A DNA stretch of 5,291 nucleotides, from positions 1-5,291 of the forward strand of contig JACPHL010000228.1 of NCBI GenBank assembly GCA_016188625.1. Reading direction: 5' to 3'. The position numbers and the translations under genes are program-made. Positions 1,593-3,184 of the stretch are shown here, piece after piece. This DNA comes from Candidatus Rokuibacteriota bacterium (lineage in GTDB: Bacteria; Methylomirabilota; Methylomirabilia; Rokubacteriales; JACPHL01). Below the pieces are notes generated by a model. The model worked only from the letters and a program-made list of their open reading frames with translations, had not been told where the DNA came from and did no database searches. Within the stretch, counting starts at the first letter, position 1. Every line of letters begins with the position of its first letter.

Positions 1593-2639
1593 ATGCTGCA
1601 GTCCCGCGAAATCAAAAAGCAGGCGGCTCAGCGGCTGCGTGAGGTCTTCCCTCTCGCCCGGGAGTGGCAGGAGTCCATCGACTCCCAGGTGGGCGGCCAG
1701 CCGGTGGACATCCTGGTGAGGTTCCGGATGGGGGGGGAGGAGAAGACGCTGCTCTGCGAGGTCCGATCGGTCGGCCAACCGCGCTACATCCGGGAGGCGA
1801 TCACGCGCCTGGCCAACCTTCGCCAGCAGCTCCCCGACAGCTACCCGATCGCCGTCGCCACCTACATCAGCCCCCAGTCCGCCGCGCTCCTCAGGCGGAA
1901 CGGCTGCGGCTACCTCGACCTCTCGGGGAACTGCTATCTCGCCTTCGACAACGTCCTCATCGAAAAGGAGGGGAAGCCCAACCTCCGCCCGGCCACCCGC
2001 CCGCTCAAGACCCTCTTCGCCCCCCGCGCCACCCGCGTCGTCCGCGCCCTCCTCGCCGAGCCCCAGCGCCCCTGGCATCTCGAGGAGCTGGCCCGCGCCG
2101 TGGGGGTGAGCCTCGGCCATGCCCACAACGTGGTGAAGCGGCTCGGGGACCTCGAGTGGGTGGCGCGGGACGAGGCCAACCGGATCCGCCTCGCGGCCGC
2201 GGGCGAGCTCCTGGATGCCTGGCGGGAGGAGTACACCTATCGGGCCAACGCCCTCCACGCCTACGTCTCCCAGGAAGGGGTCAAGCGCCGCCTCATGGAG
2301 GCCATCGCGCGCTACGCCAAGGGGCAGGGGACCCCCTACGCCTTCACCCTCCACGCCGGGGCCTCCCTCGTGGCCCCGCAGGTCCGGGTCCCGACGATCC
2401 ACTGCTACTGGGCGGGAGACCCCGAGCCGCTGGCCCGGGCCCTCGGCCTCCAGCCCGTGGAGGGCGAGGGGTCTGTCTATCTCCTCACCCCCTACGACAT
2501 GGGCGTCTTCTACGCCCCCCTGCAGAAGGGGGGGCTGGCCGTCGTCTCGCTCCCCCAGCTGTACGTGGACCTCTACCACCATGAGCGGCGCGGTCGCGAA
2601 CAGGCCGAGAAGCTCCGGCGGGATGCGATCGGCTACTGA
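1593..2639 (+). CDS. AbiEi-like winged-helix protein with nuclease-like N-terminus
   Basis: 348 residues from ATG 1593. The N-terminal third (about 10-130) shows a degenerate PD-(D/E)xK-like layout: D39 in VDILVRF, then LLCEVRS with E56 and R58 where active nucleases have ExK. It continues with helix YIREAITRLANLRQQ, AVATYISPQ and the motif GYLDLSGN (106-113). Residues 140-200 form a winged helix, with HLEELARAVGVSLGHAHNVVKRL as the helix-turn-helix. The C-terminus has LPQLYVDLYHHERRGREQAEKLR (320-342). I recognise this arrangement from proteins annotated as type IV toxin-antitoxin AbiEi-family antitoxins or transcriptional regulators. In AbiE systems AbiEi represses its own promoter and counters the AbiEii nucleotidyltransferase toxin. 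No such toxin is seen, so this may be an orphan regulator. The start is chosen because the control region lies directly upstream; no good Shine-Dalgarno precedes it. Confidence 0.8.
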   Translation: MLQSREIKKQAAQRLREVFPLAREWQESIDSQVGGQPVDILVRFRMGGEEKTLLCEVRSVGQPRYIREAITRLANLRQQLPDSYPIAVATYISPQSAALLRRNGCGYLDLSGNCYLAFDNVLIEKEGKPNLRPATRPLKTLFAPRATRVVRALLAEPQRPWHLEELARAVGVSLGHAHNVVKRLGDLEWVARDEANRIRLAAAGELLDAWREEYTYRANALHAYVSQEGVKRRLMEAIARYAKGQGTPYAFTLHAGASLVAPQVRVPTIHCYWAGDPEPLARALGLQPVEGEGSVYLLTPYDMGVFYAPLQKGGLAVVSLPQLYVDLYHHERRGREQAEKLRRDAIGY

Positions 2640-2654
2640 GCTGCCCCGCGCAGT

Positions 2655-2683
2655 GGGCCGGGGGAACGCCGGGGCCGGGGGAA
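2655..2683. repeat. 12-bp direct repeat, 17-bp period
   Basis: GGGCCGGGGGAA occurs at 2655-2666 and again, unchanged, at 2672-2683, separated by CGCCG. The second copy runs into the Shine-Dalgarno of the first lysine-rich microORF. It may be a replication-slippage duplication or a protein- or RNA-binding element; nothing in the sequence settles which. Confidence 0.6.
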
Positions 2684-2691
2684 GGAGGTGA
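2682..2691 (+). promoter_or_regulatory. Extended Shine-Dalgarno before microORF 1
   Basis: AAGGAGGTGA is a ten-base exact match to the complement of the usual 16S rRNA 3' tail, longer than at any annotated gene in this window. Its core ends ten bases before GTG 2699. It supports real translation of the 13-codon frame, although GTG 2688, inside the site, opens a competing frame. Confidence 0.7.
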
Positions 2692-2698
2692 GCACCGA

Positions 2699-2740
2699 GT
2701 GGCGAAGAGGAAGAAGGCGGCTGCCAAGAAGAAGAGATAG
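2699..2740 (+). CDS. Lysine-rich microprotein 1 (13 residues)
   Basis: GTG 2699 to TAG 2738-2740 encodes MAKRKKAAAKKKR, in which eight of thirteen residues are Lys or Arg and the rest are Ala apart from the start Met. It is not a gene I recognise. The composition resembles the Lys/Ala tails of bacterial histone H1-like proteins, which bind nucleic acid, but at 13 residues there is no domain, so any function is inference. Coding is supported by the ten-base Shine-Dalgarno at good spacing and by a near copy 76 bases downstream with the same length, composition and translation signals. It lies 59 bases after the AbiEi-like gene on the same strand and could be co-transcribed with it. A competing frame from GTG 2688 would give an Arg-rich 39-residue peptide ending at 2807. 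The repeated 13-codon pattern favours the short frame. Confidence 0.5.
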   Translation: MAKRKKAAAKKKR

Positions 2741-2758
2741 CGGAATAACGCAGCTGAG

Positions 2759-2786
2759 CCGCCGGGAGGCCGGAGCCTCCCCGCGG
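2759..2786. promoter_or_regulatory. Strong hairpin between the two microORFs
   Basis: GGGAGGC (2764-2770) and GCCTCCC (2775-2781) pair around a CGGA loop. After a single C-C mismatch, CCGC (2759-2762) pairs with GCGG (2783-2786), giving about 11 base pairs. No T-run follows, so a simple intrinsic terminator is unlikely. It may act as a stability element, attenuator or processing site between the two small frames. Confidence 0.5.
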
Positions 2787-2797
2787 ACCCTGCGGGA

Positions 2798-2808
2798 AAG
2801 GGGGTGAT
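2798..2808 (+). promoter_or_regulatory. Extended Shine-Dalgarno before microORF 2
   Basis: AAGGGGGTGAT matches the 11-base anti-Shine-Dalgarno complement AAGGAGGTGAT at all positions but one, and that change still allows a G-U pair. Its core ends 11 bases before ATG 2816, almost the same spacing as at microORF 1 (ten). Such long matches are not expected by chance twice within about 130 bases. Confidence 0.7.
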
Positions 2809-2815
2809 TACCTAG

Positions 2816-2857
2816 ATGGCGACCAAGAAGAAGGCTGCCAAGAAGAAGAAGAAGTAG
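2816..2857 (+). CDS. Lysine-rich microprotein 2 (13 residues)
   Basis: ATG 2816 to TAG 2855-2857 encodes MATKKKAAKKKKK, with eight of thirteen residues Lys. It aligns with microprotein 1: both have a short Met-Ala start, a KK-Ala-Ala-KKK core and a basic end, and both share the DNA word GCTGCCAAGAAGAAG. The pair looks like a tandem duplication. The peptide is too short for standard gene finders. It is highly cationic, and binding to DNA, RNA, ribosomes or an acidic partner is possible but unproven. The frame ends just before a strong hairpin at 2873-2901, which could close the transcript. An alternative view is that the AAG-rich RNA matters and the peptide is a by-product, but the near-perfect Shine-Dalgarno argues for translation. 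Confidence 0.55.
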   Translation: MATKKKAAKKKKK

Positions 2858-2872
2858 GAGGGAACCACCCGA

Positions 2873-2901
2873 GGGTGGGGGGTGAACCAGACCCCCCACC
2901 C
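2873..2901. terminator. Strong GC hairpin downstream of the microORFs
   Basis: GGGTGGGGGGT at 2873-2883 and ACCCCCCACCC at 2891-2901 are perfect 11-bp arms around a seven-base loop. The structure begins 15 bases after the stop of microORF 2, so it probably ends or protects that transcript. No T-run follows on either strand, so termination may be rho-dependent or hairpin-only. An overlapping alternative pairing, CCACCC (2865-2870) with GGGTGG (2873-2878), would compete with the left arm. Confidence 0.55.
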
Positions 2902-2918
2902 GGACTCATCGATCCCAG

Positions 2919-2946
2919 CGAGGGGGGCCGGCCTCGGCCCCCCTCG
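2919..2946. terminator. Strong GC hairpin downstream of rpmB, possibly bidirectional
   Basis: CGAGGGGGGCCG at 2919-2930 and CGGCCCCCCTCG at 2935-2946 form a perfect 12-bp stem with the four-base loop GCCT. It starts 12 bases beyond the rpmB stop, as read on the minus strand. It also lies downstream of the plus-strand microORFs, so it can serve both convergent transcripts. There is no T-run on either side. Confidence 0.6.
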
Positions 2947-2958
2947 TGATCTCTCGAC

Positions 2959-3150
2959 TCAGAGGGCCCTGACGACCTTGCCGGCGCGGAGGCAGCGGGT
3001 GCAGACCTTCACCCGGCGCGTCTGCCCGTGGACGACGGCGCGGAGGCTGACCAGGTTGGGGAGCCAGCGACGCGTGCTGACGTTATGGGCATGGCTGATC
3101 CGGTGGCCGACCACCGGCCCCTTGCCGCAGAGATCACAGCGCTGCGCCAT
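2959..3150 (-). CDS. rpmB: 50S ribosomal protein L28
   Basis: 63 residues, the normal length for L28. It begins MAQRCDLCGKGPVVGHRISHAHNVSTRRW and continues LPNLVSLRAV, then TRRVKVCTRCLRAGKVVRAL. These are the standard L28 landmarks: the CxxCGK start, the GH-xSHA-N-T-RRW stretch and a basic C-terminal part. Both cysteine pairs are present (C5/C8 and C50/C53), so this is the zinc-ribbon form rather than the cysteine-free one. L28 is part of the large ribosomal subunit and is translated in the cytoplasm. An upstream extension of the frame to 3255 is rejected, because GGAGG on the minus strand lies about ten bases before the ATG at 3150 and the promoter lies within the extension. The gene is transcribed alone, divergent from recG and convergent with the microORFs. 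Confidence 0.98.
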   Translation of the reverse strand: MAQRCDLCGKGPVVGHRISHAHNVSTRRWLPNLVSLRAVVHGQTRRVKVCTRCLRAGKVVRAL

Positions 3151-3184
3151 TCGGACGACTCCTCCGGGTGTCTCGCTGGGAGTG

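Follow-up and report, generated by a model that had tools for sequence, protein, structure and literature searches.

Lysine-rich 13-codon twin genes are conserved throughout Rokubacteriales and have look-alikes in several other phyla

Two tandem genes, each just 13 codons long, are real and are conserved across the Rokubacteriales, an order of uncultured soil bacteria; several other phyla have look-alikes. Their peptides consist almost entirely of lysine and alanine and probably serve to cover nucleic acids or other polyanions or to neutralise their charge. The genes, here called microORFs A and B, are located in a stretch of 5,291 nucleotides (the window) from a 2.6-Mb draft genome of a Candidatus Rokuibacteriota bacterium. 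Below, we demonstrate their gene structure, conservation, protein-level selection for lysine, operon position and multi-copy status.

The microORFs in the window and the evidence for coding

A sequence-only reading had drawn attention to the two 13-codon frames, their Shine-Dalgarno (SD) sites and a common peptide word. All were found where it had placed them (Table 1). The common word is GCTGCCAAGAAGAAG, and at the DNA level A and B are 76% identical over 41 nt. The 16S rRNAs of three relatives end with GGATCACCTCCTTTCT. SD1, the site of A, is a perfect 10-base complement of this end. SD2, the site of B, is a 12-base complement with a single A-to-G change, at which a G-U pair is still possible. 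Thus, the predicted anti-SD match of 10-11 bases was accurate for SD1 and slightly generous for SD2. The spacing from GGTGA to the start is 7 nt in A and 8 nt in B, where GGTGA ends at 2807, i.e. it differs by one base as had been claimed. The whole window contains exactly two AAGGRGGTGA sites, SD1 and SD2. When 2640-2958 was subjected to dinucleotide shuffling, none of 5000 shuffles produced a K/R-rich frame whose SD scored 9/10 or better, as compared to the two observed; this bears out the earlier argument that the recurrence is unlikely to be due to chance.

Table 1. Features of the window around microORFs A and B.
Feature	Position	Strand	Basis
AbiEi-like gene, 348 aa, AbiEi_2 domain and winged-helix HTH, first in putative operon	1593..2639	+	Pfam AbiEi_2 24.4 bits, cut-off 21
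SD of microORF A (SD1), AAGGAGGTGA	2682..2691	+	Exact complement of relatives' 16S 3' end
microORF A, GTG start, MAKRKKAAAKKKR	2699..2740	+	Orthologous A frames, 11-23 aa, 50/58 loci
Hairpin between A and B, not conserved	2759..2786	+	Folds in window; relatives' mean z after A -0.18
SD of microORF B (SD2), AAAGGGGGTGAT	2797..2808	+	Compared with relatives' 16S 3' end
microORF B, ATG start, MATKKKAAKKKKK	2816..2857	+	Orthologous B frames, 10-14 aa, 58/58 loci
Conserved hairpin after B, GGGTGGGGGGTGAACCAGACCCCCCACCC, probable transcript 3' end	2873..2901	+	z < -1 in 50/58 loci; consensus structure
Probable terminator: perfect 12-bp inverted repeat ahead of the convergent rpmB 3' end	2919..2946	.	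Inverted repeat in window
rpmB (ribosomal protein bL28), convergent neighbour	2959..3150	-	Pfam Ribosomal_L28

Coding was examined in 58 regions upstream of rpmB in which sites were selected by GGRGGTGA alone, leaving composition unfiltered. The coding strand carried 109 such sites, the opposite strand a single one. A start codon was present 3-11 nt beyond the SD at 106 of the 109 sites, and every one of these 106 open frames contained at least 50% Lys+Arg. Across the 58 loci we counted 893 lysine codons (AAR; 828 AAG and 65 AAA) and no asparagine codon (AAY), whereas 90 of 281 Ala/Thr codons (32%) had C or T in the third position (Fisher p 4.5e-62; the counts are not phylogenetically independent). 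Copies A contain 433 K and 116 A codons, copies B 482 and 129, respectively. At the rpmB loci MAKKKAAKKKKK is encoded by nine DNA versions and MAKKKATKKKKK by eight. Ungapped divergence is 55-74% in the flanks, i.e. near saturation, and 12-29% in the frames. Because lysine codons never became asparagine codons while Ala/Thr third positions are free, selection acts on the peptide; an RNA-only reading was ruled out on the same grounds. Therefore, it is near certain that A and B are genuine protein-coding genes. The initial suggestion of real small genes below the usual annotation cut-offs is thus borne out by the frames in 58 rpmB loci and by a codon pattern of selection on lysine.

Conservation, gene order and conserved hairpins

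A DNA search with 2640-3160 yielded matches in 59 of 59 genomes searched. Many were matched at two or three separate places, and the part in common was the microORF with its SD. Of 60 Rokubacteriales genomes, 58 contained the motif pattern GGTGAN{4,9}RTGN{0,6}AARAARAARGCNNNNAARAARAAR, as did 2 of 35 genomes from the other orders of the class; the pattern read backwards, used as a control on the same genomes, had no matches. In one of the two pattern-negative Rokubacteriales genomes (G035) related frames are present which were missed by the pattern (L186). The sequence-only reading had suggested a search beside rpmB/recG in relatives, and the frames do recur there: 50 of 58 rpmB-side loci have the tandem pair and eight a single copy, with starts of A and B mostly 84-104 nt apart. 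Broken frames, which that reading had named as the opposing outcome, were not seen in the relatives. Start codons, SDs (at least 7/10, mostly 9-10/10, at the 58 loci) and Lys codons are conserved. None of 26 rpmB loci in the other orders of the class had a microORF pair; therefore, the rpmB-side pair is a trait of Rokubacteriales. One bin, G026, contains two distinct rpmB loci (L019 and L022) with a separate microORF pair at each, i.e. either a duplication or a mixed bin.

Placement downstream of AbiEi-like genes, another proposal of the initial reading, was invariant. At each of the 56 testable loci, i.e. those with a contig extending far enough, an AbiEi-like homologue precedes the first microORF by 5-70 nt on the same strand. 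An AbiEii nucleotidyltransferase adjoining the AbiEi-like gene was not found; downstream are only A, B and then the convergent rpmB, with recG on its far side. A conserved hairpin follows B and, as a rule, none follows A. Accordingly, the AbiEi-like gene, A, B and the hairpin look like a single operon which faces rpmB. Upstream of the AbiEi-like gene the window carries a Zincin_1 metallopeptidase gene (996-1376), and the few relatives with locus sequence reaching that far have it as well.

Many Rokubacteriales genomes possess a third family member, copy C, with 10-13 aa and mostly a GTG start. Usually it stands alone, with a divergent B12-binding radical-SAM gene on one side and convergent nrdR-glyA on the other; in one subgroup it is found 150-180 nt beyond the matched end of pyrE. 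Its codons, 305 for Lys and none for Asn, show a pattern like that of A and B.

In the window a hairpin follows each frame; at the A/B locus the relatives conserve only that after B. A hairpin after every frame as a component of the unit was considered and dropped, since conservation is limited to B and C. The B and C hairpins have conserved sequence (GGTGGGGGGTGGCGGCCTCCCACC; CGGCCCTGTCGG...CCGGCAGGGCCG) and lack a U tract (window 2873-2901; L023-L041 and L201-L218 after C). They are unlike each other. The B core, a run of 24 bases identical among 22 of 40 genomes, is present once per genome and solely at the microORF locus; the C core, in 16 of 40 genomes, likewise occurs once and solely beside the microORF. 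The C hairpin is very stable (mean z -3.78), and it is unchanged whether C is near pyrE or nrdR. A search of the Rfam families gave no match. The B and C hairpins may be terminators or 3' stabilisers.

Proposed function and alternatives

What could such peptides do? Nucleic-acid binding in the manner of an H1 tail was one role suggested by the sequence-only reading. We consider it rather probable that A, B and C are strongly translated, minimal polycations resembling a histone H1 tail which act in trans on nucleic acids or other polyanions. The near-perfect SDs and the Lys codons directly after the start would favour abundant translation. The products would be lysine peptides of 10-23 residues with Ala/Thr spacers and 8-9 positive charges per 12-13 residues, presumably too short and too highly charged for folding and hence disordered. 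From their chemistry one would expect binding to polyanions in trans, comparable to that of a histone-H1-type tail segment released from its protein. Targets might be DNA, which would be coated or condensed, rRNA or the ribosome, or another polyanion such as polyphosphate. Because the genes are multi-copy and C is placed independently, we prefer a polycation to a partner-specific role. Lys/Ala composition alone is no proof of any one binding partner. Further, a general polycation would need neither an AbiEi-like partner fixed at A/B nor hairpins with conserved sequence; both hint at more specific roles. On a wider scale, we tentatively entertain the possibility that free-standing Lys/Ala genes of 10-22 residues, in tandem or at fixed places in several phyla, encode polyamine-like polycations, and that the Rokubacteriales mRNAs with their locus-specific conserved hairpins are dual-function RNA/peptide genes. 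If true, few of the conserved protein genes known to date would be as small as these Lys/Ala genes.

Conceivably, the RNA comes first, i.e. the transcripts work chiefly as small RNAs by way of the hairpins conserved at their 3' ends, with the peptide as an additional product. The restriction of both hairpin cores to a single site beside the microORF, and the constancy of the C hairpin in the pyrE and nrdR contexts, are compatible with this. However, protein-level selection on the Lys codons is very strong, Rfam has no match, the B and C hairpins differ, and they are perhaps mere terminators or 3' stabilisers; we regard an RNA function of this kind as rather unlikely. The invariable AbiEi-like gene immediately upstream raises another question: do A and B replace the absent AbiEii and tune how the AbiEi-like regulator binds DNA or how active it is, in a toxin-antitoxin-like module? 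Such a partnership would fit the tandem pairs that follow winged-HTH and HEPN-like genes in G071, from another family of Methylomirabilota, and in L162, from Nitrospirota. Yet copy C has no AbiEi-like neighbour, and the neighbours are unrelated in Eisenbacteria (an NtrC-type regulator) and in Chloroflexi-labelled genomes (a uracil-DNA glycosylase). This makes an AbiEi-directed role doubtful, even more so than the RNA function.

Leader peptides are comparable in size to short, Lys-rich frames with strong SDs, and the microORFs could be leader or stalling peptides which regulate a downstream gene via ribosome behaviour on Lys codons. This was rejected as very improbable: a co-directional gene directly downstream is absent, the next gene being convergent (rpmB for A/B, nrdR for most C), a conserved hairpin ends the unit, and the unequal lengths of A and B as well as the C copies misfit a single leader. 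Finally, AAG-rich tracts are simple sequence and might represent a chance or low-complexity purine tract and no gene at all. The shuffles and the reversed-pattern control exclude chance and, together with the lack of Asn codons and the free Ala/Thr third positions, reduce the probability of this reading to practically nil.

How do the proposed polycations compare with known systems? The very small basic ribosomal proteins bTHX and eL41, about 25 aa, are similar in size and basicity; they differ by being Arg-rich with defined sequences. The histone-H1-like proteins, Chlamydia Hc2 (PF07382) and the KPAA tails of AlgP and PhaF, are likewise very basic, of low-complexity Lys/Ala sequence and expected to be disordered. 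Hc2, AlgP and PhaF have 150-350 residues, whereas the microORF peptides comprise 10-23 residues, lack a folded domain and are encoded by tandem microgenes with near-perfect SDs. AlgP KPAA-repeat peptides bind DNA in vitro, and AlgP was found at polyphosphate granules (PMC9239181). Short members had no matches among Pfam and NCBIfam models, nor did members of 22-23 aa match the HC2/NCBIfam H1-like profiles. With the type IV toxin-antitoxin system AbiE (AbiEi/AbiEii) the locus shares the AbiEi_2 domain of the upstream gene; unlike in AbiE, two Lys microORFs take the place of AbiEii, and the chromosomal position is fixed beside rpmB/recG. An AbiEi-type regulator gains an unexpected fixed partner.

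Free-standing, very short coding ORFs are known as microproteins of up to 20 aa in sORFdb. Those short entries are mostly from Escherichia; a ribosome binding site was detected for no ORF of up to 10 aa and is absent in 87.5% of those of up to 20 aa (PMC11796252). The ORFs of 10-13 aa described here differ by SDs of mostly 8-10/10 and by order-wide conservation. Considering how rarely short sORFdb ORFs have a ribosome binding site, such conserved, well-equipped microORFs are unusual. A literature search with the peptide strings retrieved no paper from the collection searched. Since ORF prediction for a global smORF catalogue began at 30 bp (PMC11364881), microORFs of this kind may stand there unnamed. 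Conserved genes of 10-13 codons fall under standard annotation limits and Lys-rich products are nearly invisible to trypsin-based proteomics; therefore, a whole class of genes could be missed. The codon evidence, the order-wide conservation and the simplicity of the peptide make a minimal polycation, as a selected component of the cell in uncultured bacteria, directly testable.

Look-alikes outside the Rokubacteriales

A scan of a genome collection for the motif returned at least 117 stretches. Besides Rokubacteriales, the matches listed include strong-SD microORFs, 10-22 aa long, from Eisenbacteria, Nitrospirota and Chloroflexi-labelled soil genomes as well as from Eremiobacterota, Verrucomicrobiota, Brocadiales and candidate-phyla bacteria. 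Among them several are tandems (L092, L122, L162). In Eisenbacteria, the phylum of L178, 23 of 47 genomes have one copy each. As a control, one of 34 genomes of a Bacillales family matched, by chance within a long protein. The phyla with Lys/Ala microORFs may have common ancestry or have converged on so simple a peptide. A phage origin was discarded; 2.9 million viral contigs yielded 15 motif stretches, most of which belong to longer proteins and have weak SDs.

Among the matches listed, Phycisphaerae and Patescibacteria have AAKKK proteins of greater length, about 20-110 aa. In Phycisphaerae and other Planctomycetes, AAKKK-repeat proteins of 32-109 residues have the same SD type (L080, L087, L091, L110, L114, L123, L134, L154), and a nadD-looking gene is near many of them. 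These proteins are candidates for longer versions of the microORF peptide. Against HC2 a 70-aa Planctomycetes look-alike scored 19.0 bits with Pfam (cut-off 40) and 18.8 bits with NCBIfam (cut-off 80), a weak resemblance below both cut-offs.

Tandem Lys microORFs follow winged-HTH and HEPN genes in one Nitrospirota genome (L162:2124-3470, minus strand) and in one genome from another family of Methylomirabilota (L200:2464-3693, minus strand). In L162 the winged HTH is fused to a nucleotidyltransferase, and the HEPN-like gene was assigned by position. A single microORF with a related HTH gene ahead of it is present in L109 and in L116.
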